The notes under the pieces are model-generated. The model worked only from the letters and a program-made list of their open reading frames with translations, had not been told where the DNA came from and did no database searches. This document shows, in pieces, positions 5,829 through 42,722 of a stretch of 44,982 nucleotides of DNA (its first letter is position 1; the number at the start of each line of letters is the position of its first letter). The position numbers and the translations under genes are program-made. Origin of the DNA: Solicoccozyma terricola (taxonomy: Eukaryota; Basidiomycota; Tremellomycetes; Filobasidiales; Piskurozymaceae); NCBI GenBank assembly GCA_001600875.1, contig BCLD01000001.1, forward strand, positions 1,632,858 through 1,677,839. Reading direction: 5' to 3'.

Positions 5829-6284
5829 TGTCAGGACCTAAAGACGAACAACATGGTCCTCGCGTATAAAGGATGACGAATTATGACGAATCATGACGAA
5901 TCATCAAATTTTCAACTGTTCAAGCNCCGACAAGCTCCGAAGTGGGATATTCGAGACCATAGGTGGTCACCAGACCCTTCTAGATGGTCACAGGATCCGC
6001 TAGGATCCGCTAGGAGGTAGTGTTAAGCTGGAGGGGGTATTAGATTCGAAGAGAGCGCTCGAATTAGTCCCAGAGACTTGTATTGAGCAATATTATGATA
6101 ACTTAGTATATCCATTACCTATACTAAGAAAGACAACATCCAGGCCAATAGTCGCAGCTGCTATAGGTCTNTACACGTCTACGCTGCATCAGAGAAGTGT
6201 CCCCACGACTTATTTGTTACTCTAAGACTGCATCAGAGCCTGGTCCTTAGTAGTGGCCACTTGGGCGACGATCGCGTCTTGACA
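5829..6284 (+). repeat. 5' LTR of the chromovirus
   Basis: 456 bp, TG...CA ends, matching 13656-14111 except at four substitutions and two N. It includes CGTATAAAGG near 5860, three TGACGAAT(T/C)A repeats, and GAGCAATATTAT at 6085-6096, which is complementary to the bases just after the LTR. Confidence 0.95.
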
Positions 6285-6286
6285 GT

Positions 6287-6298
6287 ATAATATTGCTC
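6287..6298 (+). other. Primer binding site, probably self-primed (Tf1-like)
   Basis: The sequence ATAATATTGCTC starts two bases after the 5' LTR. It is the exact reverse complement of GAGCAATATTAT inside the LTR (6085-6096). Tf1-type elements prime minus-strand synthesis with the 5' end of their own mRNA, which pairs with such a site. I see no match to a usual tRNA primer beginning TGG. The transcription start at about 6085 is inferred. Confidence 0.65.
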
Positions 6299-6302
6299 CC
6301 TT

Positions 6303-6536
6303 ATCTGNGCAATGTTAAGGGGTAATGAGTAATGGGGAATCAGAGGAAGAATCAACAGTAACACGACTACGATCTCGAAAGGTTGCTAAGTTGCAACCAG
6401 GTCCGTTATATTCGTATACATCTGGGCAATGTTAAGGGGTAATGAGTAATGGGGAATCAGAGGAAGAATCAACAGTAACTCGACTACGATCTCGAAAGGT
6501 TGCTAAGTTGCAACCAGGTCCGTTATATTCGTATAC
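6303..6536 (+). repeat. 117-bp tandem duplication covering the gag start
   Basis: Positions 6303-6419 and 6420-6536 are almost identical direct copies, 39 codons long. The first copy has its own ATG (6325) but its frame ends at TAA 6433-6435 just inside the second copy. It thus forms a 36-codon upstream ORF before the functional gag start at 6442. One N (6308) lies in the first copy. Confidence 0.9.
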
Positions 6537-7797
6537 GAAAACAAAGGCAACAGCGAAAATGCCTTCGGAACCAAGTTCTCCTGGTAGAGAACCCGCACTA
6601 ATCACTTCATCTGTAGAAGCAGAATTGAAGTTGATTATGGAACAACAACAACAAATTATCGAAAAACAACAACAACAACTTGATGCATTGTCTGCAAGGG
6701 TAGCAGCAAGTCGGCTTACATCAGAAGAAAGGAAAGAAGAGGAAATAATTTCTAGCAAAGGAAAGGGAAAGGATACGGAAGCGTACAGATCCGTACGGAA
6801 AAGTACGGAAAATTCTGAAAGCGATAGTGAAATCGACTTTAAGGGTGGAATTAAACAAGCGAATATTCCGATGTTTTACGGAAAGAAGGGAGAAACGGAG
6901 GAATGGAGAAAGTTCCACGCTGCAATGGAAATTCATTTCGCCCTACATACCAAGCAGTTCAAGCTCGATAAGGTCAAGATTCTCTATATTATTATGAACT
7001 TCCGGGATGAAGCTATGGAAACTATACAACCATATTTAGTCATGAAGGAAGAGGATAAACCTATGTGGATGAAGGAATATAGCAAATTTGTCGAACATAT
7101 GGAACAAAGCTATCAAGATCCTAACGAAGGCCAAGTTAATCTTCAAAAGTTATGGAATACTCCTCAAAAAGTTGGGCAATCGATTTTGGATTATCAACGA
7201 GACTTTGAATTGATCGCAGCGAGATGTCCGCAAGTGGAAGATGCCACTAAGGCTTTCATCTATTTTAAAGGTTTATCGGACGAGTTGAAAACACTGGTAA
7301 TCCATCAGAATAATCAAATGCCTACTACGCTTGACAGCATGAAGAAAGCAGCAAGTAATTCCGCATTTGCTGAAAAGACGCTGGCATTATCTTTACGCTC
7401 TTCAAGCACTTTTGCTGGAGGTGCAAGAGGAACTGGATTTAGGCCACGACCACCACGTCCGTGGCAGGTTGGAGAGGTTTTGGAAACGGAAACACCACGA
7501 TATAGTCAAAAGTATCCACCATCAAATCAGCCGTTAGGAAATTATTCAAGTAGGCCGCCAAAGAATCCTCAAATGTCAGCTGAGCAGAAAGCAGAAAGAG
7601 ACAGGCGATTCCGCGAGGGGCTGTGTTTAGCCTGTGCAAGCAAAGATCATCTGTACAAAAATTGCCCTAAGAAGCAACAGAAAGCGGATGCAACGGCTAA
7701 AGCTCCATTTAGTGGATTCAAAAGTGGACCCAATTATCGACCTGTAGGAATACTCAAGCGAGAAGATTCACAAGGGGAAGAAAGTTCAAAAAAATAG
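6442..7797 (+). CDS. Gag polyprotein of the chromovirus
   Basis: 451 residues in one open frame. The structural protein forms the virus-like particle that packages the RNA. Visible: a Gln-rich coiled-coil-like stretch (about residues 63-85), a retrotransposon gag domain around residues 150-270, a Pro/Arg-rich linker, and one zinc knuckle CLACASKDHLYKNC (C395, C398, H403, C408; CX2CX4HX4C) for RNA binding. The frame ends at TAG 7795-7797, overlapping pol. The start at 6442 is the first ATG of the long frame; a duplicated copy of the same start lies at 6325 but stops early. Confidence 0.95.
   Translation: MSNGESEEESTVTRLRSRKVAKLQPGPLYSYTKTKATAKMPSEPSSPGREPALITSSVEAELKLIMEQQQQIIEKQQQQLDALSARVAASRLTSEERKEEEIISSKGKGKDTEAYRSVRKSTENSESDSEIDFKGGIKQANIPMFYGKKGETEEWRKFHAAMEIHFALHTKQFKLDKVKILYIIMNFRDEAMETIQPYLVMKEEDKPMWMKEYSKFVEHMEQSYQDPNEGQVNLQKLWNTPQKVGQSILDYQRDFELIAARCPQVEDATKAFIYFKGLSDELKTLVIHQNNQMPTTLDSMKKAASNSAFAEKTLALSLRSSSTFAGGARGTGFRPRPPRPWQVGEVLETETPRYSQKYPPSNQPLGNYSSRPPKNPQMSAEQKAERDRRFREGLCLACASKDHLYKNCPKKQQKADATAKAPFSGFKSGPNYRPVGILKREDSQGEESSKK
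7788..7794 (+). promoter_or_regulatory. Slippery heptamer A AAA AAA for -1 gag-pol frameshifting
   Basis: Seven A directly precede the gag stop TAG and are in register with the gag codons (tcA AAA AAA TAG). Pol lies in the -1 frame relative to gag. A slip of one base back gives AAA AAA ATA GTG and continues into pol without a stop. This fits the X XXY YYZ rule for programmed -1 frameshifting. I did not fold the downstream RNA. Confidence 0.7.
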
Positions 7798-10700
7798 TGG
7801 AGGAGCTTGAGTTAGGCTGTATTAGGCTCCGAACATTGAGTGCAGCCTATTCTATTGAAAAGGTTACTGAATTATTTGAAAAAGCGGATATATCAAAAGA
7901 ATTAGGAAAAGGGAAAATACCGTTTGTGGTAACCAACAATGAAGCTGTACTAATTTGCAGAATATCGATGAATAGGATTGATTTTCAAGATGTAGCATGT
8001 TTGTTGGATACAGGGGCAACGATCAATATAATTCGCAAGGATAGCAACATATTGAAGAATGCAAATATCAAGAGATATTATCAACCAAAGAAATTGCTGT
8101 TAGCCGATGGAAGTGTTTTGACAGCAGCATATGTGACGGAATTTGTAGTGGGAACTCTACATTTCGTAGGAGACTCACACCCAAGGAGGATTAGATTTGA
8201 TATCGCAGAAGTCGGAGGACCAGAGATAATTCTTGGAGGGGGATTTTTCCAAGAGTTAGGAGTCGTGATGAATTGGCCGGAACGTTACTTGGTTATTCAA
8301 GGTCCTGAAATGGAAATTGACAATAATGAGGACGGTTACGGAGTAGCAAGTGATAAGGGGTACGCTCGATATAGAGCACTAAAAACAACGACAGAAAGTC
8401 CGAACGATATTCTCGAGCAACACGATTATGTTGAAGAATATCAAGACAAAATACGACAGATTTCCGCACGAAATCTTACGGTGGAAGAAAAAACCGTAAA
8501 AATCCGTACGGTTTTGTATGAATCCGTACGATGGCTACAGAATCCCGACGATTACCCGGAAGGTAATGAAGATTGGGAAGATTTGGAAATGGAAGAGATC
8601 GAGAAGATCCTTCCCGAGGAATTCAGTCCATGGAAGGACATATTCCGAAAATCGGGGTCACTGAAGTTACCTCCGCACCGGATGTGTGATCATCAAATAC
8701 ATTTAGTAGAAGGGGCTAAGCTAAAGGCAGGAAAGGTCTATTCTACTACGAAGAAAGAAGGCGAATGGATTCAACGCTACGTGGAAGGCGAAGTGCGAAC
8801 TGGACATATGAGACAATCGAACGCACCACATAGCAGCCCGGTATTCGCCATCCCCAAGAAGGACGGTACATTCAGATTAGTCACGGATTATCGACTACTG
8901 AATTCCTTTACTATCAAAGATGCAACTCCGTTACCAAGTATTTCAAGTATTATCGAGAGACTGGCCGACGCAAAGATCTTTATCGTGTGTGATCTACCTA
9001 GGGCCTATCAATTGATAAGAATGCAAGAGGGACATGAACATTACACGACTATTTGCCATAACACAGGACAACACGAGTCCCTAGTTATGAGAGATGGACT
9101 GTGTAATGCACCAGCAACGTTTCAGGGATTTTTGAATGAAATCTTTAGGCCAATGATAGGAAGGGGAGTAGTTGTGTACATGGACGACGTAGCGGTATAT
9201 GGAGATTCAAAGCAGCAAGTAAAAGAAAGGTTCTATCAAGTCCTGGACATACTTAAAGCGAATTCTCTATATCTCAAGCCAACAAAATGTCATTTCTACA
9301 CAACGACAATCAATTTTCTCGGATACGTAATCTCTGATGGAAAGATTAGAATGCAAGAAGCAAAGGTAGAAGCGATTAAAAACTGGCCTGCGCCAAATAA
9401 TGTTAAGTCGCTACAACGCTTTTTAGGTTTTGCTAACTTCTATCGCAGATTTATAAAGGGGTACTCCGAAATAGTTACCTCTTTAACTAGTCTAACAAAG
9501 AAAAATTGTGACTGGAAATGGGAAGAAGAACAGCAATTAGCTTTTGATAAGCTAAAGCTGCTATTTACGCAAGAACCTATCGTACGAACATTTGATAGGA
9601 CAAAAGTGATTTATTTGGAAACAGATGCTTCAGATTATGCAGTTGCAGCGGTGGCAAGTCAAGTATACGTTCAAGAGGAAAACGGAAAAGAAATAAAGAG
9701 ACTACATCCAAACGGATATTTCTCTCGAAAAATGATTCCGGCAGAATTGAATTATACGATACATGACAAGGAACTGCTAGCAATTGTCAACGCAATGCAT
9801 GAATGGAGAGTGGCTTTTCGAGATAATGAAAATCCGATTGAAGTAATTACAGATCATCGTAATCTGGAATACTTTATGACGACAAAACAATTAACTCGAA
9901 GACACATGCGTTGGTTGGAAGAAATTCAGGAATTTGATTTTGTGATACGATACAGACCTGGAAAACATGCCACTAGGCCGGATGCTTTATCAAGAAGGGA
10001 AGATTATCATCCTGGAAAAGGATCATCTTTATTGGAAAGCGAGAATCCAGGCAATAACGTGACGGTTTTACCACAAGGATGGGGAAAAGAAGTTGAAGAA
10101 GAATTTTTATGTACGAATCCGTACGAAAAATTACGGAAAACTACGGTTTTATCAACTTCACCAAAAACGTTGATGGCAAAGCTTCAATTAGGATTAAATC
10201 ATGATTCAACAATCAACGATATCCTAAAGCAAGGAAAAGCGTTAGTGAAATGGGGAATAACATCACTAATACAGCCAAACGTCAGTTGGACGAAAGAAGG
10301 TTTGCTATTATTTCGACGCAAAATCGTTATACCAAACTACCAAGATGTGCGACTTGAAATACTGCAAAACAGACATGACTCAAAAACCGTCGGACATCCA
10401 GGAGAAACAAAGACGTTTGAACTAGTCAATCGAGACTATTACTGGCCAGGAATGTGGCAAGATATCAAAGATTATATTCAATCGTGTGAAACATGCACTA
10501 GGAATAAATCAAAACACCATGCGCCGTATGGACTCCTTAATAGTCTGGATATTCCTGAAAGACCATGGGACGATCTTAGCATGGACTTTATCGTCGGATT
10601 ACCAGAAAGCAAAGGCTTTACAGCAATCTTAGTCATAATTGATCGGCTAAGTAAAATGTCGCTTTATATTCCGACTACAAATCAAGTTAATGCTGCAGAT

Positions 10701-11723
10701 CTAGCAAGAATGTTTACGGAACAGGTATTTAGTAAACATGGAATCCCTAGAAGCGTCATATCCGATAGGGGAACACAATTTAACTCGAAATTCTGGAGAG
10801 AATTTACTACTATCCTCGGAATCACATCAAATTATAGTACGGCATATCATCCGCAAACTGATGGACAAACCGAGCGTGTAAATCAAGAGNTAGAATGTTA
10901 CCTACGAACATATATTACTTACATGCAAGACGACTGGGTTGAATTCTTGCCATTGGCAGAATTTGCAAGAAATAACAGTGTTAACGCAACAACAGGTGTA
11001 ACACCATTNTACGCAAATTATGGATTTCATCCTNNATTCGATCCACATGTACCGGATACAGTAGGAATGTCTCCAGCTGGACACGATAAAGCTGCAGATC
11101 TTACGCAAGTCCATGAATATCTGCGACGAAATATGAAAAGGTCTCAGGAACGTATGGCAAAATATTATAATGAAGGGAGAGTAATTCCGCCAGAATTCAA
11201 TGTCGGCGACAAAGTGTTCTTGAAAAGCAAGAATATTCGAACGTTACGACCATCGCATAAACTCGATTCCAAGCATTTTGGACCCTTCAAGATAATAGAA
11301 AAAGTCTCTGATTGGGCATACCGACTAGAACTACTGAAGACAATGAAAATTCATGATGTCTTTCACGTAGATCTACTTGAGCAGTGGAAGGATGCAAAAC
11401 GCATCAAACGTCCAAAGAAGCAGCAACCGAAAGAAGTAGTGGAAACAGTAGAAGAAGACACATATGAAATTGAAGAAGTATTAGCAACGGATTGGGTAAA
11501 GAAAGGACCAAGGTCAAAACCACATTTGGAATGTCTATTCAAGTGGAAAGGATATGAGGGACAACCAAACGCAGAAACATGGGAAATTTATGAAGGCGGC
11601 GTTGATGAATTACTCGCTGACTTCTATAACAGAAATACAATGGCGGCAGGAAGCCCGCAAGAACCAGAAGAAATGAAAGGTGTAACTAGGGGATTGAAAA
11701 AAGCGTTTAAAGCAGTTCGCTAA
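7797..11723 (+). CDS. Pol polyprotein of the chromovirus (PR-RT-RH-IN-chromodomain)
   Basis: 1308 codons, open throughout, with three X from N bases. Domains in order: aspartic protease with DTGAT at D71; reverse transcriptase with FAIPKKDG, first catalytic Asp in CDLPRAY (D399) and YMDD at 461-464; RNase H with ETDAS, a KELLA helix and TDHRNL; integrase HHCC zinc module (NRHD, VGHPG, CETC) and DD35E core D930, D990, E1026 ([10 protein letters not shown]); a [12 protein letters not shown] module; and a C-terminal chromodomain around residues 1223-1280 (LFKWKGY, TWE). The chromodomain probably steers integration to marked chromatin. The RT box LPRAY is unlike the usual L-x-SGY. No own ATG is needed: it is most likely made as a Gag-Pol fusion by -1 frameshifting. 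Confidence 0.96.
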
Positions 11724-11833
11724 AAGATTATGCAAAGAAAGAAAAAGAAAAGAAACGAATCCGTACGGAAACGAACGGATTTTTACGGAAAAGTCCAACA
11801 AGAAGAAAATTAATAAAGGAAAACAAAGAACTA

Positions 11834-13279
11834 TTACAAAGGCGGCGGAGTTTCAAAATTATCCTCGTCAACGCTACGATCCTGACGAACTCTCTTACTC
11901 TTGCTCCATGTCTGACGTTCTGAAGACATACGGAGAAGTTCTTCATCCGCTTCGTTGAATTCTTCGGATCGACCGCGTTTCGAAGAGGAAGCCTTCGCGT
12001 TTGGAGTCGAAGCGACGCTACCGACCATCGACTTACTCTCTTTCGACAATTCCTTAAACGAAAAACGAAGAGCCTTGAAGATATCCGGATGATTATCTTC
12101 GATGAATGAGACGAAATTGCCGGTCCAGTCGGATAATTCGCCAGTTAAAAGAGCACGTTCCTCGGTAGGTAAATTCAACGCCTCCACAAGACGATGGAAC
12201 GTACGAAGACCAGTCATCAAACTTGAGACCGCAACTTGGCTCGAATTGCTGACGGTGATCTTCCTATCGCAATTGCTGAGAGAGCGAGAATTGCAAAGGC
12301 GACAAGCTTTCGACGTTTTATCCTTCAGCATGCAAGGAATTTTGGCGATCTTGCATTTACCGCACGCCACAGCCGCTTCGATATCATTTGCAAATTTATC
12401 GGCAACCTAGCTAAATAAAGTCAACAATGATACGATGCAAATAACAAAAAGAAGAAAACTTACTTTAGGAAATTCTAATCCAAGCGCAGCGGCTTGACCT
12501 TCTTTCAAAGCGAAGTTCGGAACGATCGCTTTGAAAACGCTCATACGAAGTTGAGCATTTGTTTCGGACGTCGGAACGCCAAGGTAAAAGGGGGCAAGGG
12601 CCCTTTTACTAGCCGGAAAGATATGCGTAGTCTTCAGATGCTTCGCAATAGCAGCTAACTTCGCAGATTCATCCTCAGTTAACTAAAAAAGAAATAATCA
12701 GTAAAACAATTTAAAAGAAAGAAACAAAACACTTACAGCAATAGGAGCGTCGATGGAATCCGTATCGTCTTGAATCAAAGCTGCGGCAAAAGACTTCGCG
12801 GTATCCTGAATAGCTTGTTTACGACGTTCAAGAGCTTTTCGTTGATTGTCGTAAACGTCGCCCGTCGATTCCAAAGGACCGCCAATAATAATAGGAACGC
12901 GTTGACCGAATTTAATAGCTTCGTTCTAAAATACGAAAAATTACGGATTATTTCGTTTCCGTACGAAAAAATACGAAAAAATATAAAAACGCAAAAAACA
13001 CTTACAAGAGTACGGAAAGTAAACGCATTAATGAACAAACCGTCTTCAATTGGCGAAAGATAGAGTTCAAGTTCAGAACTCCAAATAGCTTTGAAATTAG
13101 TAGCAGGGGTTTCACGATTCTACAAACAGAACAAAATCAACAAAATACCAACATTAAAAATCGAACATACGCACAGACCAAGATAATCGATAAGCAATAA
13201 TGCTTTCTTCACAACGTTTAGTTTCGGTATCGGCAACTTCCACGTAAACATTTTCGGATGGAGAAGAATAAAACGGCAT
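11834..13279 (-). CDS. Antisense, spliced Zn(2)-Cys(6) protein gene carried inside the retrotransposon
   Basis: Five exons on the strand opposite to gag-pol: 13279-13175, 13119-13006, 12925-12737, 12682-12464 and 12406-11834. They join in frame at phase 0 each time and give 399 residues. Donors are GTGCGT, then GTAAGT three times; acceptors are all TAG; introns are 54-80 bp. Cysteines 224, 227, 234, 244, 247 and 255 fit CX2CX6CX9CX2CX7C, the fungal Zn(2)-Cys(6) DNA-binding cluster. The cluster is in the middle of the protein rather than at the N-terminus. The C-terminal third has two basic patches (SSKRGRSEE, SKSKRVRQDR) that may be nuclear localisation signals. The region before the cluster is of unknown type. 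Because the gene is antisense, its introns are not removed from genomic retrotransposon RNA and can persist. The gene lies wholly between pol and the 3' LTR. Function as a DNA-binding regulator is inference. Confidence 0.82.
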
Positions 13280-13655
13280 CTTGAAGATTGAAGGAAAAGG
13301 TTAAGGTGGATTGGATTGAAGCGAGGAAGATTGGATATTTGGAAATGTTGTATGAAATGAAGTGAGAAAAGAAAAGGGGAATTCGACTGCTCGAAAGCGA
13401 AGACTATATACCTGAAATCAAGACAACACTACGCCAAATGGAATAGAACAATATCGAATATTTGAACATTTAACGAGTTAATCAAAGTGCAGAAGGTTGT
13501 CTAAGACAAAGAGATTAAAATAGATCTGCATTGGGGGGTGCGAATCTATTAACATCTATTGTCTGGACAAGGGGGACCTTCAAAGAACAAGAAATATCAA
13601 GTATAGGATCGACATAATTAGCTCGTCCGGAGGCCTCGCATTGAGGGGTATGCAC
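13280..13655 (-). promoter_or_regulatory. Presumed promoter of the antisense gene, next to the 3' L TR
   Basis: About 375 bp between the antisense start codon and the 3' LTR, without an ORF of note. By position it must hold the antisense promoter and leader, unless transcription begins inside the LTR. Its plus strand ends in TTGAGGGG-TATGCAC directly before the LTR, a weak candidate for the polypurine tract that primes plus-strand DNA synthesis. Confidence 0.4.
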
Positions 13656-14111
13656 TGTCAGGACCTAAAGATGAACAACTTGGTCCTCGCGTATAAAGGA
13701 TGACGAATTATGACGAATCATGACGAATCATCAAATTTTCAACTGTTCAAGCACCGACAAGCTCCGAAGTGGGATATTCGAGACCATAGGTGGTCACCAG
13801 ACCCTTCTAGATGGTCACAGGATCCGCTAGGATCCGCTAGGAGGTAGTGTTAAGCTGGAGGGGGTATTAGATTCGAAGAGAGCGCTCGAATTAGTCCCAG
13901 AGACTTGTATTGAGCAATATTATGATAACTTAGTATATCCATTACCTATACTAAGAAAGACAACATCTAGGCCAATAGTCGCAGCTGCTATAGGTCTTTA
14001 CACGTCTACGCTGCATCAGAGAAGTGTCCCCACGACTTATTTGTTACTCTAAGACTGCATCAGAGCCTGGTCCTTAGTAGCGGCCACTTGGGCGACGATC
14101 GCGTCTTGACA
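13656..14111 (+). repeat. 3' LTR of the chromovirus
   Basis: 456-bp copy of 5829-6284, ending CTTGACA at 14111 and followed by the target duplication CCTTT. It differs from the 5' LTR by four single-base substitutions, apart from the two N in the 5' copy. Confidence 0.95.
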
Positions 14112-23371: not shown

Positions 23372-24932
23372 TGTAACGATCTAACGAAGATCGTCACACC
23401 CGAGGATAGACCAGTCACTTGACTCTCTATCCGATATCGATCAGCTATCGTTTGGTCTATGCGTATCCATAGATCATCTCTTCGTTCTTCTTTGCGGCTG
23501 GATCTGAATCTTACGGCGAGGGCCCTACCATCCGTCACTTGCCGATCATTTCCTCTTTCCCCGGTTATCAAGACCCCCGGAGGACCGGCGCCTGACAATT
23601 CGTCTTCATGTGTGCGTGTGTGTGTGGGCGGAGCTGCTCCACTAAGTGTGTCTACGTTCGAGTGCCTACGGCAATGGTTGGTCGTGTAATGCAGTGGTCA
23701 GTTAAGAGTGTTGCATACTGTCAGGTGCTGATCTTTCTTCGTGGACTTAGCGGCTTTCGGACTCCTCGTTTCACGAGATAGGACTAAAAGGCTTCATCCG
23801 AAGAGGACTGCTATGACTGTATTCGGGAACTCACGCAAGTTAGTTTCAGGTCTATATAGCCCTATACTCATTATGTACCGCTGGGATCCAATGATCTAAT
23901 GTAATATGATTGGTTAGATAGCGAGCCTAAGTCGATATACGATTCGTCAAGATGCGAGTGGCAAATGTAGTGTTGTGGAATGCTATGCATTAACAGGGTG
24001 ACTTACAATAGAGAAAAGAGGTCCGTAATCGAGGAAGTCCGATTGGTCCAAGAGGCGTAAGAGGAGAGCGAAAGAAATAGAGTTAAGTCAAGTAAGGATT
24101 CATATCCCAATCCAGACGTAGATGCATAGAGTCTGAGGCCATACGAGAGATCCCGTGTCCAGTGTTCAGTAGATTGGTCGGATCCTTACACATACAGTTG
24201 ATAATATTGCCCGAGGAAAGAGAGCAATACAAGGATACATACAAAAGGCTACCTTTAAGTATGTAGAACGGATGGGAACACTTGGCTACTTGCCATACCA
24301 TCTGGGCCGTACTGTCTGAAGCTGCATTGTCCCACAGAGGCCATATTGGAGATACTGGCATCGTATCGGAGATACTGGCGTTCGTATTGGAGATACTGGC
24401 GTTCATATACAACCGATCCATAATGCCAAGCTATGGTAAGGTCATATCACGACTTTAGTATGCAGAATCGATCCAGCAGGAAGGTGTGTGAGCGGCGAGA
24501 GCATGTCTTGGGCGAAGCCGGTTGGATTCGGATGGATCCGCCTGATGGCGACCACATCTGAGATGGCGTGAGTCGATTCAGCCGTTGTCGGGCCATAGAC
24601 CTGGCCTATGCTCATTGTTCAAGGAACAATGGTTGTAGGTGTATGAGCCTAGTTCGGGTCAGGCAAATGACGACGATAACATGTGTGAGTTATGTGAATG
24701 ATGTGGCGCGCCCTATCTGATATCCTAGAGCGACGGCGATGGGAGATCGTAGCGTTGTCAGGATTATAGGGATCTGATCCTGAGACGTGTTGGGTTTATA
24801 TACAACTGCAAATGCAATTCCACCTCTGGTCTGGAAATGTGACCTTTTGCCGCAATGGTAAGGGGTACGGTTAATCAATGTTACTTTGCAGTTGCATTCT
24901 TTACAAGCGTGTTCAGAGGAATTCCCGTGACA
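23372..24932 (+). repeat. LTR-like repeat A, left copy (with nested repeat B)
   Basis: It begins TGTAACGATCTAACGA and ends GGAATTCCCGTGACA, so it has TG...CA ends. The same ends and much of the interior recur at 33847-34838 in the same orientation. This copy is longer because repeat B (23719-24007) and an extra 150 bp or so before its end (about 24756-24907) interrupt it. CpG positions of the right copy are often TG or CA here. I found no target duplication. Whether the two copies ever formed one retroelement is not proven. Confidence 0.65.
23719..24007 (+). repeat. Repeat B, left copy
   Basis: It begins TGTCAGGTGCTG and ends near AACAGGGTGACTTACA. It matches the complement of 34834-35121 over most of its length, including the block from CACGAGATAGGACTAAAAGG through ACTCACGCAAGTTAGTTTCAG. 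It is probably a solo LTR nested in repeat A. Confidence 0.65.
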
Positions 24933-26420
24933 CTGGGCACCTCCACGTCAGCCGACAAGACCGCAGAAGGCCATCCCGCTTTTGCCTGCCCGTGCACGCT
25001 ACCACCCGACTATCCCGACATCTCCAGCATGAGCCATCATCGCTGCCTGGATAAGGCCAAAACCAAGACCCCTACTCCTGCGAGGCCCGGATCTGTCCCC
25101 AAGGGCTCCGCCATCTCGTCATCGTCAGCTCCCTCTGTCCTCGTTCGTGGTCGATGACGATGATGAAGAAGACGAGGATGAGGAGTACAAGGAACTCCCT
25201 GGCAAACGCCACAGGCAATCATAGACGATCTATTTCCGAGCCTTTTTCCTTCATACCCAGTCTCAATTCTCCGACCATTCAATGACTTCCAACATCCGAC
25301 CTCTGGACAAGACACAAGAATGACTTCTCAACGACAACAATGACAAAGATTCTCCAGCAAGTACCGCATCCTGTAGGATGGTTAGTGTGCTTTGGATGGC
25401 TATGATGCTCGAGCAATGACTCGAGGGTAAAGAACTCTCGTTTGTAAGGCAGGTTAAAATTCACCGCCTAGATGACATTCAGTCCCTATTTCCCTTCTCG
25501 TACAGTACATGTGCTCGTTTTCTTGGCCATATTCGTCGCCATATCCACCACCACATCATCACTTTGCTTCTTCTTCATCGGATTCCCCAATTTCTCGATG
25601 CCTATTCCCGGTTCCAAATCATTTTCATGCATGAAAAGCACCAATGCACTCCTGTCACTGGTGAATGGTGCAATGGCATGGCGGATAACCCTTGAATGGA
25701 AGATACAGAGGTCTCTGTGTTATACTCCATCCTTAAACCAAGGGAGGATGAGATGGCCATCTGTGGAGAGGGTTTCAGTAACCGAGCAATAGATAGCAAC
25801 ACCTGAGAACTTGACATACCCTTGTATTCCCCAACTGTCGTCATCCCCACCCCACCCCTCCAACCATCTTATCCACATGTGGTAGACCCACAGATTCACC
25901 ACATGTGCAAAAAGAGAGCCAGGCCACTGGGATGGAGTGGGTTTCCTGTGTGGCTGTGATGGACAAGACAACGGGGGGCAGGAATCAGCATTCTGATCTC
26001 AACCTGATCACAGAGCGATCACAGAGACAAACTCACCAATCCCTGCTTCTCAAGCTTCCGGCGGCGATTTTTGGTCATGGTTCTGGCAGCAAGGTGATGT
26101 GGGAATGTGGGATAGGCAGTACCCAATGACCTGGAACTTGAAATGGTGGAGCACTCGTCAGAACATTCGCCATGAGTGAATCTCATTCCTCATCATATGT
26201 TGGCTCACGAGTGTGAACTGAACACCTTGTGGTAGCAGTAGCAGTAGGTGTCATCGCGAGCACTCTTCAAGTCAGCCCTAAGAACCGAAAGAAGATTTTT
26301 AGTAGCTGTTGATGTGTGGTATATCAGCGTACTGACATCCTGGCATTGCGATTATCAGTCAAGGGTCCGATGGATGCACAGGCCTAACTTGTACTCGATG
26401 CCAAGCATGATCACCTCGGC

Positions 26421-27389
26421 TTGAACAATGTGCCACAAGAGATGCGAGACGAGTACGATAGACTCTATACAGAATGTCGATCTGCATACCAGCATCATCT
26501 GCATGCATTCATGCATGAGGAGCATATGGAAAACCACACTCGAGCGATTCGTGCACGAGTATCAACTGGTTCAAACATCGTGGCCATCCAAGATCCTGCC
26601 ACCGGAGAACCCTCTGATGCTCTCGATCAAGATCAAGCAGATAATCTCCTTGACATGATGCCAGAAGATGGTGCATCATTCCTTGGTTCACTGAACGAGT
26701 TTGAGCAGATCGTGGGGGAGTGCGACTTTACCAACAGTGACACTGCACTCACATTCATCCCCGAGACAGCCGAGCTCATGGCTACCATGGACAAGTCAAC
26801 ATTCGATTCGCTTCAAGTGGTTGCAACCAGAAGTGGTGTCCAGGAGGACGAAGATGAATGCTCCGAGGTCAAGGATGCTGGCCAAACCGACCAGCCTGTA
26901 CCGAAACCGACTGCAAAGGCCACAATGTTGCCTGCTTCCAAGTCTCGTGGAAAGGCTATCGTTATACCGATTGTACGGGTCACACCAGCTGCAGAGTCGT
27001 TGCCTGTCGGAGAGTCGTCAACTGTGAGATCCTCTGCCCCCACAGCAGCAGCAAACCGAATGGATGCTTGCAGCAGGGCTATGAACCAGAAGCAAAGCAA
27101 TCAAATACCAACCTTCATCTTATCGTGTGAACTCCTGGATGATGAATTTGAGAATTCCGGGTTCTATCCAGGCCTGGAGATGACTCTAGATGATCGCTGC
27201 ATGACGTCCAACATGGACTTGAACAAGTTCATGGGCACAAAGTCACATTACATCAAGGTGGAAAAAGTACATCATACCCTCCGATGTGTGCAAGATAAAG
27301 CATGGGCTGATGAGCTGCCTGAGCTGCAAGCGATCTACAATGCTGCAGCCAGTAGTGGATTCCAAATGCTTTTTCTGCCAGGACAATGA
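26421..27389 (+). CDS. Unknown 322-residue ORF in the decayed block
   Basis: The longest intact frame of the block, starting MNNVPQEMRDEYDRLYTECR. The middle is acidic and rich in Asp/Glu/Ala, followed by a Ser/Ala/Pro linker, then LSCELLDDEFENSGFYPGLEM and a KSHYIKVEKVHHTLRC segment. At its end the frame shifts into an overlapping Cys/His-rich frame (SKCFFCQDNDND ... LVCSCGV, to 27534), which looks like the true continuation through a splice or a frameshift. No family recognised; probably an element-encoded protein. Confidence 0.5.
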   Translation: MNNVPQEMRDEYDRLYTECRSAYQHHLHAFMHEEHMENHTRAIRARVSTGSNIVAIQDPATGEPSDALDQDQADNLLDMMPEDGASFLGSLNEFEQIVGECDFTNSDTALTFIPETAELMATMDKSTFDSLQVVATRSGVQEDEDECSEVKDAGQTDQPVPKPTAKATMLPASKSRGKAIVIPIVRVTPAAESLPVGESSTVRSSAPTAAANRMDACSRAMNQKQSNQIPTFILSCELLDDEFENSGFYPGLEMTLDDRCMTSNMDLNKFMGTKSHYIKVEKVHHTLRCVQDKAWADELPELQAIYNAAASSGFQMLFLPGQ

Positions 27390-28719
27390 CAATGATGTCG
27401 CACCACATATGCTCAAGATGCCGCTTCAGCAGTCTCAGCACATGGAGAGACATCTCAAGGAGGACCGCTTGGTCTGCTCATGTGGGGTAACCATTCCTCC
27501 CGGACGGATGGTGTTACGTATGCACATGGCTTGAGAACATCAGGTCTGGCTGTGCTGGCATCCTGCCATGAAGGGTCTCCATACAATTGAGGTGGTTCAC
27601 TTTGCCGACTTGACCGTGCCATTTGACCTGGAGAACGGGGCATATGGTGATCCAGTAAAGTGGGACATGTTTTATGGATGGGGAATTGGCCCTGTTTGGA
27701 TGTCAACGACTCGAACATTTGATTCAAAGAGTGAATCTGATATCCTGTAATGTTGCCATCATTGTCGAGATCCTGGATATGTGGAGGTGGTGACATGAAT
27801 ATGCATATCAACTTCAGCACACCTTGGGAGATGCTGTACAGCCGATGATGCCGATGAGGTTCTCGTACTCTTCAAACAGCTCATTTGGGAGCAGTGTGTT
27901 GTGTTCATGCAGTAGTTTGATCATGGTGTTGAAAAAAGTAGAGATCTTGGATTTTTGGTGTAATCTGTCATCCTTGCACCTTTTGTTTTGAGCTGTTTGG
28001 TCCTCCTCCTCTCTGTCCTCACAACATCATTTCTGCTCCAGTCTCTCAGTCTCTTTCGCCTCCACCTCTTCCTGCCTTTCAGCAAGAATGACAGTGGTGG
28101 TGGACTCGGCATACAGCTTGAACATCTTGTCGTATGTTGGCCATATGATGTCGGAATATATTTTCTTGCTCTCCATTCCAAGCTGGAGAGTTTTGTGGTT
28201 TATGCCTTTCGACATGGTGTTCTGGGCCACCTACCTGAAGTTCAACTTTCCCTGTTTCACAGGACTTGTTTTCTCTGAGGGTTGAGTTGTCAGCAAAGTC
28301 ATAGCCCCCCCGAGGTGGTCATTGTTCACTTACATTGCCATAAATGTGCAGCCATTAACTGCACCATCTCTTCAGCTGGGATTTCCTTCCCACCTCACTT
28401 GTAATCGATTCCTATTCTCGTCTTCAACACCCTCAGGGTCAGTCGGCTCTCCACTGTGCCTTTGGTTGTCGATGGGACCATGGGGAGAGAACCTAGGAGG
28501 GATACAATTTCCCTCTCGCTGGCAAGTTTCTTAGCTGACTCGACGAAGTCCATCCATCGATTGGGGTCAATCGCTGTGCATTCCACAGGAGGGTAAGCAC
28601 ATGGACTCGGTCAGGAGTCTGCTCTCTCAGATTGCTTTGGTATCAAGAGAATCCTTCGTTCCTCTGAGAACAGCTCGTAAGATGGTCATCAGCGACCGAC
28701 ATGTTCTATCCACACACAG

Positions 28720-29382
28720 TTACATGTACATGCAGCACTCACCATCGGAGAACCATTCAGCAAAGTACTTCAATGCAGCAACCTTGTCATGGTGCATCTT
28801 TGGCGGCAAGGGACACGATATCCCTCGAATGAGATCGAAACTACCGATCAGTCCATTCGCATTTGCCTGTAATTTGACATCCATGGCATATTGACTTAGC
28901 TCGTGCACAATCTCATCTTCGGTGAGATGAGCAAGATTCTTTAGGAATGGTATGAGATTTGCAACTTCTATTCTGTTGCCATGATCGATGTCCAGTCCTT
29001 TGAGGTCAGCCATCTGCTCCACACGAGACATATGTTGGTGGACTGGGCAGTGCAATCGGAGGTGATCAATGATGCTCTTGTTGTCACCCTTCAATGGCCC
29101 ACATGACCCTTTGAAGATGTGTCCCCGGCATACATGTGAGGAAGACCATGTTCTTGCAAGCACTGTAACACATTGCCTTCTTTGTTCATCTGTCATTCCA
29201 TCACAAATGTCCAGAGTATAAAGACTTTGCCGACATGCGTAATGCTGCAACGAGACACTTGTTTGGTACATGGGTACAAATGCCCCCAAAAAAGAGGGTT
29301 CAAATGTCAGGATGTTTTCGCCATAGCACAAGTCACACATCAGAAGATGACAGGCATGATGCATATCAGGATGTTTGTGCAC
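28720..29382 (-). CDS. Unknown Cys/His-containing ORF in the decayed block
   Basis: 220 codons open on the minus strand. It includes LDICDGMTDEQRRQCVTVLAR, a Cys/His-rich segment (VCRGHIFKGSCG ... HCPVHQH) and an Asp/Glu-rich helical end (IPFLKNLAHLTEDEIVHEL). The minus-strand fragments at 28395-28586 and 28027-28230 may be further exons of the same protein. The text LDICDG also appears in the minus-strand ORF near 30580. No family recognised. Confidence 0.4.
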   Translation of the reverse strand: MHKHPDMHHACHLLMCDLCYGENILTFEPSFLGAFVPMYQTSVSLQHYACRQSLYTLDICDGMTDEQRRQCVTVLARTWSSSHVCRGHIFKGSCGPLKGDNKSIIDHLRLHCPVHQHMSRVEQMADLKGLDIDHGNRIEVANLIPFLKNLAHLTEDEIVHELSQYAMDVKLQANANGLIGSFDLIRGISCPLPPKMHHDKVAALKYFAEWFSDGECCMYM

Positions 29383-29751
29383 AGCATAGGGTCAGCAGAG
29401 TAGCTCCAATCAGAGAGATATCCAGCATCCAATCCAAAAAGAAGTGTTGCAGATAAAGTGCAAAAAGAAATTTTATTGTTTGATCCATCCGTGAGCGAAC
29501 AGGGCCGGCAGACAGGGAATAAGCAGGAGTCATTGTCTTCATTTCCAATGGATGGCCAGCTTCTTTTCCAAGGGATGGTTGATCATCTTGAAATCAGAAA
29601 TATCACTCTCAAATGTTCCAATACATAACAACATCCAGTCATTCACAATCTCCCAATAATATCCCAACTATGCAACCCACCACCTTCACGATGACCTCCT
29701 CCTCCTCCTCTACCATTGATATTGACATTGTTGCAATCACACCCATTCTTC

Positions 29752-30759
29752 TCAACATACTTGGCCATTTAGAGATGACATCCAACATTTCTGCTTGGGG
29801 TTAGGAGCTGATGCCAGGCTTTTGAAATGCAGTAGAGGATTGATTTGAAAATCCTCTTTGGCCTCGAATAGACCAACGTGGACCATCCTGGATGAGTGAT
29901 CTCCCGAAACAAGCTGGGGGATTGTTGGATTGAGAAAAGAGGACTGATCCAACAACCCGAGAGCGTACAGAGTTGGCCCTATGATGCCACTCAATGGATC
30001 AGTACTCTTGGCGGTACGAGATCGTTCCTTGAAAGATTGTGCTGTCATTCCAGGATATACAGCGATGGTGGTCTCGCCATATGTTCCGAACGTTCCACTT
30101 CTTTGCTCGTCCATGCTGCTGTACTCGAGACGTGCTTCGATACTTATCAAGTCAACGATGGTGGGGAGGCTTGTGATTGTCAAAGTACCATTAGAAGAAA
30201 GTACCGATGTCCTGGTGATTGTATCATCGAGTGTGGCTGCCTTGGCAATGTTTGGAAGGTCTTTGTATTCGAGGATGGTGGTGATGTGAGCCAGATTTTC
30301 GATGGCAGAGTCTTGAGGGCAGTAGTTGGACATGGCCGCTGCCACCATCAGACACCTGCAAAGGGTGGTCAACATCAAATGGCATGCCCCTCATATCGTA
30401 ACCACTCACCTGTAGATGAGTCCATTCATATGTGGTACCACACTTCCAAGCTTATGAATGGATGCCGGCTCAGACACCAACACCCAAAGTACCTGCTCTA
30501 ACACCCCAGGGAAATTGGCTAAGAAGAGTGTATTCTTCCTGTGACAGTATTCGATGTGTTTCTGCTGATTCAAAAGACCATCACAGATGTCGAGGGCGAA
30601 GGATACTCGGGAAGACATGCAGAGGAAGATGTTCCCATTCGTCTCTTGAAGTTTGCAATGGAGGGCTTCTCCAAAGGCCTCCCTGCATTCAGAGGGGAAT
30701 GGCCTTATATGGAGAATCGTCCAAGTACTTGCACTCTGGGTCAATATCGATATAGGCAA
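29752..30759 (-). CDS. Unknown two-exon ORF in the decayed block
   Basis: The upstream exon (to about 30412) ends PHMNGLIY. A clean intron follows (GTGAGTGG...TTTGCAG, about 30411-30362), and the frame continues as RCLMVAAAMSNYCPQDSAIEN to 29752. Together there are about 310 residues with no recognised domain. The plus-strand ORF 30541-31302 overlaps the upstream exon, so only one of them is likely real there. Confidence 0.4.
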
Positions 30760-31302
30760 TCCTCATTGCTGGCTCACGAGTTGGTCCAAAGGTTTGACGA
30801 TATTTCGAGGTGCAATATGTTGCTGGGTCCTTATCAACCCAGGGATGATGTGGTATGGCAAGATTTTGATGACGACGACAACATCGAGGACATGGTGGCA
30901 ACAACAGGCAAGGTGAATCAAGATTTCAAATACTACCCTGTTGCTGCGGGTACCGATTTGGCCATGCTCCAGTATGGGACATGCTACTTGTGTTACCATG
31001 ACACCCAAATGCCATCATCATCCCGCATCCATACTCAAACAGCAAAGGGTTACCTATCCCACTGCTTATACCATGTTGGGTCACTTATGGAGAACACAAG
31101 AGTGGATGTTACTGTAGATTTCGATGGAAGCAACGACAATCACGACGCCACCCACAATGGAGGACCCATATTCTCGTACACCAGCACAACCCACTCCTGC
31201 TTGGACAAGTGCTGCAGCACTCATGGCGTTGCTCAGAATGTCACTCTCCTCGACTTCATCAATCATCTCATCCGAATTCACTGCATCACCATCAAAGCTT
31301 GA
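30541..31302 (+). CDS. Unknown 253-residue ORF in the decayed block
   Basis: Open frame with DVVWQDFDDDDNIEDMV and a Cys/His segment (YGTCYLCYHDTQ ... HCLYHVGS), then CLDKCCSTHGVAQN. It could be a zinc-binding protein. A second plus-strand ORF (31464-31652) follows, with IIVIRDDDEN near its end, resembling the acidic ends of other small proteins in the window. It overlaps a minus-strand ORF at 30541-30759. No family recognised. Confidence 0.35.
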   Translation: MTVFDVFLLIQKTITDVEGEGYSGRHAEEDVPIRLLKFAMEGFSKGLPAFRGEWPYMENRPSTCTLGQYRYRQSSLLAHELVQRFDDISRCNMLLGPYQPRDDVVWQDFDDDDNIEDMVATTGKVNQDFKYYPVAAGTDLAMLQYGTCYLCYHDTQMPSSSRIHTQTAKGYLSHCLYHVGSLMENTRVDVTVDFDGSNDNHDATHNGGPIFSYTSTTHSCLDKCCSTHGVAQNVTLLDFINHLIRIHCITIKA

Positions 31303-32181
31303 AGCCGGACTCACAAGGGTCCTCTCAACTCTAAAGTGTTGTACATGAACCTCAAGGAGCTGGTGCAGGACATTGAAAAGAGGACTGAGGCCCATTTATC
31401 CGGTACTGGTAGTAAGACTGTGGTGGAGAGGCAAGATGCAGAGGTTCCAACCACACCAGCAGGATGCATCCATGTAAAGCAGCTGGGAAAACATCAAGGG
31501 CAAAGCAGGTGGCAATTCGTGAGGAGAAAGCTTCAACAAGTGGGATTCCAACGAGGATCATGGGTCCTCCACATGGTCAGATGAGGCGCAGCAAGACGGA
31601 CCCTGCCAAGATCATCGTCATCAGAGATGACGATGAGAACGATGGAGGCTAGGCTGCAGAACGTGCTGAGCTCGAGGGTATGGGCACAGAGAAGGTCATC
31701 GCTTACATCCCGATGAGCGACGAGGATGAGGACGAAGATGAGGAAGACATGGACACCAGCCGACTAAATGATCTTTGACGTGTCAATTCCCCACCACGAT
31801 ACACATTATAGGAAGGAACGGAACTGATGAAGACAATAACATCAATGAGGAGGGAACGGAAGGAAATGGTCAACAGGGGCCATCCACAACTCCCCAGCAA
31901 GATGGATTCGAAGACATGAAATTGACCAACCCACCTGTCTTTACTGCAGACTTCAGCAGAGTTATAGTCTCTCTTATGGTTTCCCACTCGTCGGGCAGGA
32001 GATGGTTTTGCCGATGTGAAGTGATCGAAATGAGTGTGGCATTCGCAAATGGATCAGTGGGCTCGGGAGCCTGGGCTATACTATAAGGTTACAAGGCATC
32101 AGTAGAGAATTCACACCCTAGCAACAAATTCACAACTCACTAAATCACCGCAGCCTGCAAAACACCCACCTCATCGGACTT

Positions 32182-32784
32182 TCACCTAGACAAAAGGTCT
32201 TCAATCGTTTGGTCTGCAAGCAGTGCCAAGCCCACACATAGCAACTTCCTCACTTCCACAGCAAACCTGTGAGGCAGCTGGGGCAAAGAACAGATCAACA
32301 GCACAGCCTTCATCACCCCAACAGTCCCCCCCTTCGCTGACTTTAGCTGTTGCACCTTCTTCTTCAGCATGTAATGCTGGCTGAATAAGGCATCGTAATC
32401 CAGTCCATTGATGTCATTGTTACCCTCGGCCTTGTGGATCTTTTGCACCTCAAGCGAAGAAGCTCGAATAGTGAGAGGAAGGTTGCCGAGATATTTCTGG
32501 AATTTTGCCTCGGTCACCTCGAAGCAATCTAGACTGTATTATTGTAGGAATAGGTTCTTGTAATCTTCGGTGAAGCCCTGGAAGTCATGGCCTTGGACAT
32601 TCAAGCTGCCCTTCTTCAGATCGCAAACAAAGTGGGAGTCATAAAAGAGGTTGGCCAGTTGATAGGTATCGGGTGCTTCTTCCAAGATATGGCGACGAAG
32701 ATCAGGTTGGATATTGTATTGTGAAAACTCTCTGAGCAAGGTTGTCGTTGTCTCCATTATTGGGAGCACAGCCTTGGTGGTCAC
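32182..32784 (-). CDS. Unknown ORF pair in the decayed block
   Basis: Two adjacent minus-strand frames, 32784-32539 (TTTLLREFSQYNIQPDLRRH) and 32517-32182 (MTEAKFQKYLGNLPLTIRAS). Both are helical in character and separated by a stop. They may be two pieces of one decayed protein. No family recognised. Confidence 0.3.
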
Positions 32785-33271
32785 TGGTCACCACTGCTGC
32801 CTCCATTGTGACGGTAGTCCGAATGGTTGGAGCCCAGTTGTTCTCTGATGATATGATTGCCGAAGCGAATGTGACAATGACAGGATTGCGAGATGGATCA
32901 GTGGAGGATGTCGATGATATAAGAGAACTGCGAGATGGAGCCACGATGGGTGTTTGAATGGCGGGAGTTTGAACGGTTGGAGCACTGATGGCTGTCTGAA
33001 CAGTACCAGCCCAGTTGTTCTCCAGTGACGTGGTTGCAGAAGCGATTGTGACGACGATGAGACCGCGAGATGGAGCGGCGGTGGATGAGACTATGGGATT
33101 GTGAGATAGGAGGGGTTTGGTAGCAATCGTAGGAATTGAGGTCTGAGAAAAAAGACATGAAGACATCAGATCATGCTCCCCTCCCCAAAAAAGACGTTCT
33201 CCTTTGCTTTTATCTGGCTGTGAGTATTGTCATCAGCTTCCCAAAGAAGAGCCTGCAGTCAAATAGACGAC

Positions 33272-33841
33272 TCACGCTGACAAAACAGACTGCAGAGAAC
33301 ATATGATGTCCTTTACAGGTTTTGATCGAGGCAGAAACTCATGTGCGAGGTGAGCGGCCAGGTGTGAATCCTGGATACCAACTGCATAAGACACTTTCGG
33401 ACCAGATGGTGGAGCATAGTAGTACGTCCGAGTGGTGGGAATCTCCTCGCCCTCACAACCAATGTGAGTTAGAACCTGAGCAGCACTTTGCAGTGCTTTA
33501 AACCAATGCATCCTATTGGGATTTCGCACCGAGACAGAGAGGACATAACAGGCCAAAGCATTTGGCAATCTGTTGGATATCCAAACAGATTTATCTTTGA
33601 TTCATAGTAGTCATTCAAACAGTGCTTGAACCACTGCAACCCAACCTGCCGTCTCTTCCTCGGATAGTCCTTTCTCATTCCCCTCTAGCATGTCGAAAAT
33701 TGCAACTGTCCCAAGCAGAAGAGCAAGCAAGACTCCCTCCCTTGGCACTGAGCTCCGTGCTGTCGGAAGACTCTTCATCCAACCCTTCAGCGAGAGGATT
33801 GCATTGAGGTGCTCCTGCGGGATCCATAACTCTCCAAGCAA
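33272..33841 (-). pseudogene. Decayed ORF with in-frame TGA stops
   Basis: One minus-strand frame runs from 33841 to 33272, about 190 codons. It reads LSEEETAGWVAVVQALFE, then TGA and a second TGA four codons later, then VWISNRLPNALACYVLSVSV to the final stop. The two TGA codons could have arisen from CGA by C-to-T change. No family recognised. Confidence 0.45.
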
Positions 33842-33846
33842 CTTGA

Positions 33847-34838
33847 TGTAACGATCTAACGACGATCGTCACACCCGAGGATAGACGAGTCACTTGACTC
33901 TCTATTCGGTATCGGTCAGCGTTCGTTGGGTTCTGGACGGATTCGGACGGAAGTGNNNNNNNNNNNNNNNNNNNNNNNNNNNNNNNNNNNNNNNNNNNNN
34001 NNNNNNNNNNNNNNNNNNNNNNNNNNNNNNNNNNNNNNNNNNNNNNNNNNNNNNNNNNNNNNNNNNNNNNNNNNNNNNNNNNNNNNNNNNNNNNNNNNNN
34101 NNNNNNNNNNNNNNNNNNNNNNNNNNNNNNNNNNNNNNNNNNNNNNNNNNNNNNNNNNNNNNNNNNNNNNNNNNNNNNNNNNNNNNNNNNNNNNNNNNNN
34201 NNNNNNNNNNNNNNNNNNNNNNNNNNNNNNNNNNNNNNNNNNNNNNNNNNNNNNNNNNNNNNNNNNNNNNNNNNNNNNNNNNNNNNNNNNNNNNNNNNNN
34301 NNNNNNNNNNNNNNNNNNNNNNNNNNNNNNNNNNNNNNNNNNNNNNNNNNNNNNNNNNNNNNNNNNNNNNNNNNNNNNNNNNNNNNNNNNNNNNNNNNNN
34401 NNNNNNNNNNNNNNNNNNNNNNNNNNNNNNNNNNNNNNNNNNNNNATTGGAGATACTGGCGCTCGTGTACGACCGATCCGGGCTGCCAAGCTACGGTAGG
34501 GTCGTATCACGACTTCAGAACGTAGATTCGAGCCGACTTGTGGGTGTACGAGCGGCGAGAGTGTGTCTTGGACGAATCCGGACGGATTCGGACGGATCCG
34601 TCTGATGGCGACCACGACTGAGATGGCGTGAGTCGGTTTAGCCGCTGTCGGGCCGTAGACCTGACATATGTCCATTGTTCCTTGAACAATGGTTGTAGGT
34701 GTACGGGCCTAGTTCGGGTCATGCGAATGACGATGATAACGCGCGCGAGTCCATGTTGAATGACGTGGCGCCCCTATCTGATATCCTTGAGCGACGGCGA
34801 TGGGAGATCGTAGAGTGTTCAGAGGAATTCCCGTGACA
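33847..34838 (+). repeat. LTR-like repeat A, right copy (interrupted by an N gap)
   Basis: It begins TGTAACGATCTAACGA (33847) and ends GGAATTCCCGTGACA (34838). It is collinear with 23372-24932 but lacks the nested repeat B and the extra 150 bp. It keeps more CpG dinucleotides. The interior at 33956-34445 is unsequenced. Confidence 0.65.
33956..34445. other. Assembly gap (490 N)
   Basis: 490 consecutive N inside the right copy of repeat A, probably a scaffold gap of estimated length. Confidence 0.99.
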
Positions 34839-35121
34839 TTCACCCTGTTAATGCATAGCATTCCATGACACTACACTTGCACTTAGCATCCCGATCCAAT
34901 CGTATATCGACCTAGGCTCGCTACCTAACCAACTCGTATTACATCAGATCATCATATACCTGTGTTAACAAGTGAGTAAGAAGGATAGATCTGAAACTAA
35001 CTTGCGTGAGTTCCCGAACACAGTCATAGCAGTCTTCTTCGGATTAAGCCTTTTAGTCCTATCTCGTGAAACAAGGAGTCCAAAAGCCGCTAAGCCTATG
35101 AAGAAAGACCAGCACCTGACA
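34834..35121 (-). repeat. Repeat B, right copy, inverted
   Basis: The complement begins TGTCAGGTGCTGGTC and runs to CAGGGTGAATGTCA. It matches 23719-24007 over most of its length. It abuts, and by a few bases overlaps, the end of the right copy of repeat A. Confidence 0.65.
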
Positions 35122-42612: not shown

Positions 42613-42722
42613 TCTCCGCACTCGGGATCGAACCAAGGACCTAGAGATGACTGTGCAAGTGAATTGCACATGTAATGTATTACCGTTACAGTCTCTCGCT
42701 CTTCCAGCTGAGCTATGCAGAG
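42613..42722 (-). tRNA. tRNA-Tyr (anticodon GTA) with an intron
   Basis: On the minus strand the 5' acceptor CTCTGCA pairs with TGCGGAG (7 bp, one G-T), with discriminator A. D-arm GCTC...GAGC; anticodon stem AGAGA/TCTCT around loop CTGTAA-A; T-arm CTTGG TTCGATC CCGAG. The anticodon loop gives GTA, tyrosine. About 37 bases after position 37 do not belong to the mature fold and form an intron in the canonical place, usual for tRNA-Tyr. A run of T on the minus strand (complement of 42602-42606) directly after the gene fits a Pol III terminator. Confidence 0.92.

Follow-up and report, generated by a model that had tools for sequence, protein, structure and literature searches.

The window analysed here, a stretch of 44,982 nt from contig BCLD01000001.1 of Solicoccozyma terricola, contains a Ty3/gypsy chromovirus at 5829-14111 that is bounded by long terminal repeats (LTRs) and flanked by a 5-bp target duplication. 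The LTRs are identical at 450 of 456 positions, with N at two of the six that differ, and their ends read TG...CA. On the minus strand, between pol and the 3' LTR, lies a gene whose five exons join into 1200 nt, that is 399 codons and a stop; all four of its introns are GT-AG and in phase 0. In the following list of features, antisense exons 1 to 4 and introns 1 to 3 are taken from the gene model and its alignment to a copy on contig C3.

5824-5828 and 14112-14116: target duplication CCTTT, on both flanks of the element
5829..6284, plus strand: 5' LTR, a 456-nt direct repeat, 99% identical to the 3' LTR, TG...CA
6442..7797, plus strand: gag-like ORF, 451 aa (DUF4939 E 7.8e-5, below its cut-off; weak zinc knuckle)
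7968..11723, plus strand: pol ORF, 1251 aa (Pfam: RT, RNase H, integrase; weak protease; C-terminal chromodomain-like stretch)
11834..12406, minus strand: antisense exon 5, with the six-cysteine cluster, the region following it, the charged tail and the stop (gene model, dN/dS)
12407..12463, minus strand: antisense intron 4 (relatives share its phase and, within one codon, its place)
12464..12682, minus strand: antisense exon 4
12683..12736, minus strand: antisense intron 3
12737..12925, minus strand: antisense exon 3
12926..13005, minus strand: antisense intron 2
13006..13119, minus strand: antisense exon 2
13120..13174, minus strand: antisense intron 1
13175..13279, minus strand: antisense exon 1, ATG at 13279
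13405..13410, minus strand: TATATA, candidate promoter box of the antisense gene, 131 nt ahead of its ATG, inside the element and outside the LTR
13656..14111, plus strand: 3' LTR, direct repeat, TG...CA
23372-35121: LTR-like repeats belonging to the C1-element family, spaced about 10 kb from one another; the stretch contains 490 consecutive N and no pol match
37911-39359, plus strand: MULE transposase ORF with a FAR1-type DNA-binding domain (Pfam)
42613-42722, minus strand: tRNA match of 110 nt, long enough for an intron, which ARAGORN at bacterial settings missed

A sequence-only reading of this DNA had described a 399-residue, five-exon gene on the opposite strand with four canonical introns in phase, and that model was re-derived exactly. 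It had also classed the element as a chromovirus, which agrees with the order of RT, RNase H and then integrase in a single pol ORF, together with the LTRs and the 5-bp duplication. The protease match is weak (Pfam, E 0.035) and the C-terminal chromodomain lies under its cut-off (PF00385, E 0.0014, 18.9 bits, cut-off 25.1); the PDB matches of the C-terminal stretch (E<=1) were chromodomain proteins in 33 cases out of 33, among them CBX4 and swi6, which we take to be chromodomain proteins.

The 12 bases directly after the 5' LTR (6287-6298) are the exact reverse complement of the LTR stretch 13912-13923, which is found again in the LTR of an element on contig C1. Reverse complementarity between post-LTR bases and an LTR-internal stretch is a feature of self-priming Tf1-type elements. 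A 117-nt tandem duplication lies at 6303-6536, its second copy spanning the gag start, and most of one copy is without a counterpart in the alignment to the C3 element. Among ten neighbouring ORFs scanned against Pfam, one was matched, the MULE transposase.

Close copies and coding constraint

The window lies in a genome of 23.9 Mb in 33 contigs (contigs are labelled C1, C2, C3 and so on, and loci L0xx). Over 7.7 kb the window element is 95.9% identical to another at C3:382.7-391 kb (L021), whose antisense gene is 92% identical to that of the window, with all splice sites and the frame kept, no stop, no exon indel and two intron indels (3 nt in total, in introns 2 and 4). The C3 copy is not intact throughout, as its pol has a one-base deletion. 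Differences between the two sets of antisense exons fall 12, 7 and 74 on the three codon positions, so that the third position holds 74 of 93. A comparison of dN/dS between copies in related genomes had been proposed beforehand; between these two copies of one genome the ratio is 0.054 for the antisense gene, as low as gag (0.068) and pol (0.095). The third-position bias, the lack of exon indels and this ratio led us to reject chance open frames. On these comparisons, the antisense gene of the window and C3 elements is real and under purifying selection.

The sequence-only reading had named copies that lack the gene or carry stops in it as evidence against a functional gene. The C3 copy has the gene, with no stops and the same cysteines; a copy at C2:640114-641168 has the LTR and the gene from exon 1 through intron 1 into exon 2, where it gives way to other sequence. 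A weak match to the window protein at C2:1117033 (E 6e-5, 45% over 47 aa) may represent a remnant of the C-terminal region of the antisense protein. At C5:532 kb there is a fragment of pol, 81% identical, and no antisense-gene match in the 4-kb locus surrounding it.

Distant relatives and distribution of the antisense gene

Elements only 53-54% identical in pol also have a homologous antisense gene after pol, and the arrangement in which pol, an antisense gene and the 3' LTR follow one another is kept in the lineage. In the C1 element (L024), whose LTR remnants on both sides are 99% identical over 137 nt with the match ending where N begins, the gene has three exons, 351 aa and introns in phases 0 and 1. 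In the C2:143 kb element (L022/L023), with LTRs 99-100% identical over three pieces, a gene of at least two exons lies between pol and LTR; the C1 and C2:143 kb proteins match each other with E 3e-29 over 224 aa. The partly read C2:136-140 kb element (L049) has a homologue of 329 aa. Another homologue lies at C9:192.8 kb (L050 4322-5417), where pol was not detected nearby and N starts 2 kb further on; this may be a relic or a stand-alone gene. A metagenome protein, P0003, on a 1.2-kb contig is 95% identical to the L050 homologue.

The link between the window protein and these relatives is more distant. Single-sequence BLAST gave E 0.037 (six sequences), and hhalign against the relatives' family gave a score of 35.8, with E 3.4e-4 and a probability of only 38%, over 119 columns that cover exon 4 and the position of the intron together with the six cysteines. 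This score was not reached in 100 column shuffles (best 22.7) or in 100 shuffles with the cysteines fixed (best 28.0). A phase-0 intron stands directly before the cysteine cluster in the window protein (LGLEFPK/V, the slash marking the intron) and in L024, L049 and L050 (AGLAFP/), at places no more than one codon apart. TATATA is present 85-131 nt upstream of the ATG in all six gene copies tested (four families), against a background of 59 in 718 200-nt stretches of the element. Because of the hhalign score and its shuffles, the place and phase of the intron, the shared strand after pol and the TATATA box, homology of the window gene to the antisense genes of the relatives is very likely, as far as sequence comparison can tell. 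Residues 1-136, encoded by the first three exons, are seen in the window family only.

A further ORF, on the sense strand after pol, is present in relatives (about 195-217 aa; L024 7163-7813, plus; L049 4286-3636, minus; L022 within 474-1589, plus; C3:62275-62568, minus), and the window element is without room for it. It is 34.8% identical between the C1 and C2:143 kb elements (E 1e-30) and had no convincing Pfam match.

In a midpoint-rooted RT tree of seven elements, a branch (99/98) separates the four carriers of the antisense gene from the C10, C21 and C22 elements, C10 itself being on a long branch; the C2:150.5 kb row, whose 3' region is not tied to an antisense gene, is left out of the tree. 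The C10 element has no room for the gene between pol and LTR, and the C21 and C22 elements had no antisense-strand match within the 4.8 and 4.9 kb read. Matches of the relatives' proteins to C22 (E 0.003, inside the pol match) and to C21 (E 0.096, adjoining the pol match) were both on pol's own strand and were discounted. From this distribution, the antisense gene is common to at least three element lineages and is an old, conserved part of the clade; its presence in at least three lineages means that it is not a one-off capture.

A single-sequence search of a 5.8-billion protein collection with the window protein gave no match, and the profiles of the relatives gave three metagenome fragments, related to element genes, among the approximately 8000 best candidates scored per search. 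Viral contigs (searched with pol and with the antisense profile) and bacterial and archaeal genome contigs (searched with the antisense profile) gave pattern matches, none of them a confirmed relative.

Retention of introns

The introns are kept wherever a copy spans them: 4/4 in the window, 4/4 in the C3 copy, 1/1 in the C2:640114 fragment, 2/2 in L024, 2/2 in L049 and 1/1 in L050. In L022 (C2:147-149 kb) the single modelled intron is present, with a non-canonical donor. None of the seven antisense gene copies read is processed, that is, intron-less. The earlier proposal that introns survive retrotransposition through antisense orientation is in keeping with their presence in seven of seven copies, one of them with the non-canonical donor. 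Intron retention fits an antisense message whose introns would go unrecognised in the sense genomic RNA: because the splice signals sit on the opposite strand, the sense genomic RNA would keep the introns, and therefore they would survive each round of retrotransposition.

The cysteine cluster and the identity of the protein

The Zn(2)-Cys(6) pattern is CX2CX6CX5-12CX2CX6-8C. The window protein contains CX2CX6CX9CX2CX7C exactly as had been reported, and the general pattern occurs at one place in the six-frame translation of the window and in 0 of 100,000 shuffles of the window protein. It fails in all four relatives tested; in three of these the gap between cysteines 3 and 4 is 14 residues, and L049 (C2:136 kb) has serine in place of the fourth cysteine. 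No Pfam domain matched the window protein; PF00172 (Zn_clus) was absent from its matches at E<=10, although matches with E above roughly 0.1 are mostly removed by the HMMER filters, and the best PF00172 match of a relative was E 0.48 at 11 bits, under the cut-off of 21. The TRP28 domain (PF04195) was likewise absent at E<=10 from the matches of the window protein and its relatives. The label of Zn(2)-Cys(6) protein thus stands in part: the window protein fits the spacing, but it has no Pfam Zn_clus match and the spacing of the relatives differs. Conservation of the spacing among copies, by which the earlier reading would have judged its claim, holds in the C3 copy and fails in the more distant relatives.

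A PDB search with the antisense protein gave a single meaningless match (E 1.6). When exon 5 by itself was modelled with AlphaFold, confidence was low (mean pLDDT 53); the model places putative helices after the six cysteines. The last 60 residues of the window protein form a charged tail (11 K+R, 12 D+E), which is similar in two relatives and less clear in two other models.

Divergence between sister elements

In both sister pairs examined, window/C3 and L024/L049, divergence is highest in the antisense module. Between window and C3 the difference is 2.4% in pol, 11.8% in the short spacer between pol and the gene, 7.8% in the antisense exons, 4.5% in the interval between gene and LTR and 2.9% in the LTR. 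At fourfold sites it is 5.5% for pol, 8.7% for gag and 21.7% for the antisense gene, and the antisense introns (7.3%) differ less than the fourfold sites of the gene. In the alignment of window 11690-13480 to L021 the divergence peak falls on the antisense module. For L024/L049, dS rises from about 0.2 in pol (two pieces) to 0.44 in the sense ORF and 1.07 in the antisense gene, which has a dN/dS of 0.26. The simplest account of the peak is that modules may have been exchanged between element lineages; it leaves unexplained that the introns changed less than the synonymous sites. A bolder account is that the regulator itself may change faster.

Discussion

We propose that these elements form a clade of fungal chromoviruses with an antisense, intron-containing accessory gene of their own, and consider it probable, on balance, that the gene encodes a nucleic-acid-binding regulator of the element. 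The gene would be transcribed towards pol from an internal TATA-type promoter, and its message would be spliced in the nucleus. The product is predicted to be nuclear and probably metal-binding, with six cysteines in a domain like a zinc cluster and with a charged tail; it most likely would bind nucleic acid and regulate the element, for example by damping or timing sense transcription from the LTR, in a manner that may be likened to HBZ in HTLV-1. The antisense ORFs of plants, as described in PMC11963269, and HBZ suggest by analogy that it is a nuclear regulator of the element.

Another possibility is that the protein is an accessory particle, RNA-binding, nuclear-export or anti-silencing protein rather than a regulator of transcription. 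The same sequence facts fit, namely the six-cysteine domain, the charged tail and the high divergence of the module, although HBZ and APH-2, which are antisense-encoded and have known roles, are nuclear according to PMC11963269; we regard this reading as unlikely, but as the most serious of the alternatives.

It is a good deal less probable that a host gene was captured by one element and has no role for it. The introns and the TATA box do look host-like, and the C9:192.8 kb homologue without a detected pol could indicate that a stand-alone host gene exists, but its flank runs into N, where pol may lie. Three element lineages have homologues downstream of pol in antisense orientation, the gene is constrained as strongly as gag and pol, and the two profile searches of the large protein collection returned, among the approximately 8000 best candidates scored in each, just the three fragments related to element genes. 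Slightly more improbable still is that the antisense transcript, and not a protein, is the working product, either by acting against the sense transcript or by supplying RNA silencing. The convergent arrangement towards pol and the internal promoter-like box would suit this, but the third-position bias and the low dN/dS of the window/C3 pair indicate selection on a protein, with the higher ratio of L024/L049 to be set beside them. That T-rich DNA produced these open frames and splice-like motifs by chance has a negligible probability, given the codon-position bias, the conserved C3 copy, the homology of the relatives, the shuffle tests and the TATATA box.

If the gene does encode a regulator of the element, a wider proposition is possible, which we put forward tentatively and think doubtful as a whole: that an antisense, spliced zinc-cluster regulator with an internal promoter evolved independently of the deltaretroviruses and of plant Retand, that the presence of introns labels the message as nuclear and made by the host, and that the regulator diverges faster than the element, so that each family would regulate itself and not its relatives. 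Such a convergent strategy becomes testable in tractable organisms. The element also shows how an intron-bearing gene can persist in an element that is copied through RNA, and its protein family lies outside Pfam coverage and can be used for the annotation of fungal genomes.

Several known systems invite comparison. The window protein resembles the GAL4-type Zn(2)-Cys(6) factors (PF00172) in fitting the PROSITE-like pattern given above, and differs in being without a Pfam match, with spacing altered or a cysteine lost in its relatives. The cluster of GAL4-type factors is usually N-terminal, whereas in the window protein it is mid-protein. HBZ is an antisense, spliced gene for a bZIP protein and is started in the 3' LTR. 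It is like the present gene in being antisense, spliced and at the 3' end of an LTR element, and is itself a nuclear regulator; the present gene differs in its six-cysteine protein and in a TATA box in the internal region, and no homology between the two was seen.

In fungi, the Figure 3 legend of PMC2864245 (2010) lists for some elements a further ORF of unknown function, its orientation not being given; this is again a fungal gypsy element with an extra ORF, although the terms antisense, opposite and reverse orientation are absent from the main text of that paper. No antisense spliced gene in a fungal LTR element was recognised among titles and the starts of abstracts in the open-access literature, and an earlier description is possible; the view that the arrangement is undescribed in fungi is consistent with that search alone.

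Plant Ty3-gypsy elements of the Retand, Grande and RIRE2 type have ORFs in antisense orientation (TRP28, PF04195), placed between pol and the 3' LTR, according to PMC11963269, which also mentions the HBZ antisense gene of HTLV-1 and reports the Grande antisense protein as nuclear; antisense ORFs in plant LTR elements, named in the earlier reading, are thereby confirmed. They are like the present gene in their position between pol and the 3' LTR, in antisense orientation, in lineage-wide conservation and in being suspected to encode a DNA-binding regulator (PMC11963269). They differ in belonging to plants, to a non-chromovirus lineage and to the TRP28 domain, whereas here a fungal chromovirus encodes a cysteine-cluster protein with no TRP28 match; and the term intron is absent from the main text of PMC11963269, whereas the gene models here have 2 to 5 exons. 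Antisense genes of a regulatory type, known from deltaretroviruses and plant Retand, are thus indicated in fungal chromoviruses, where they come with conserved introns.
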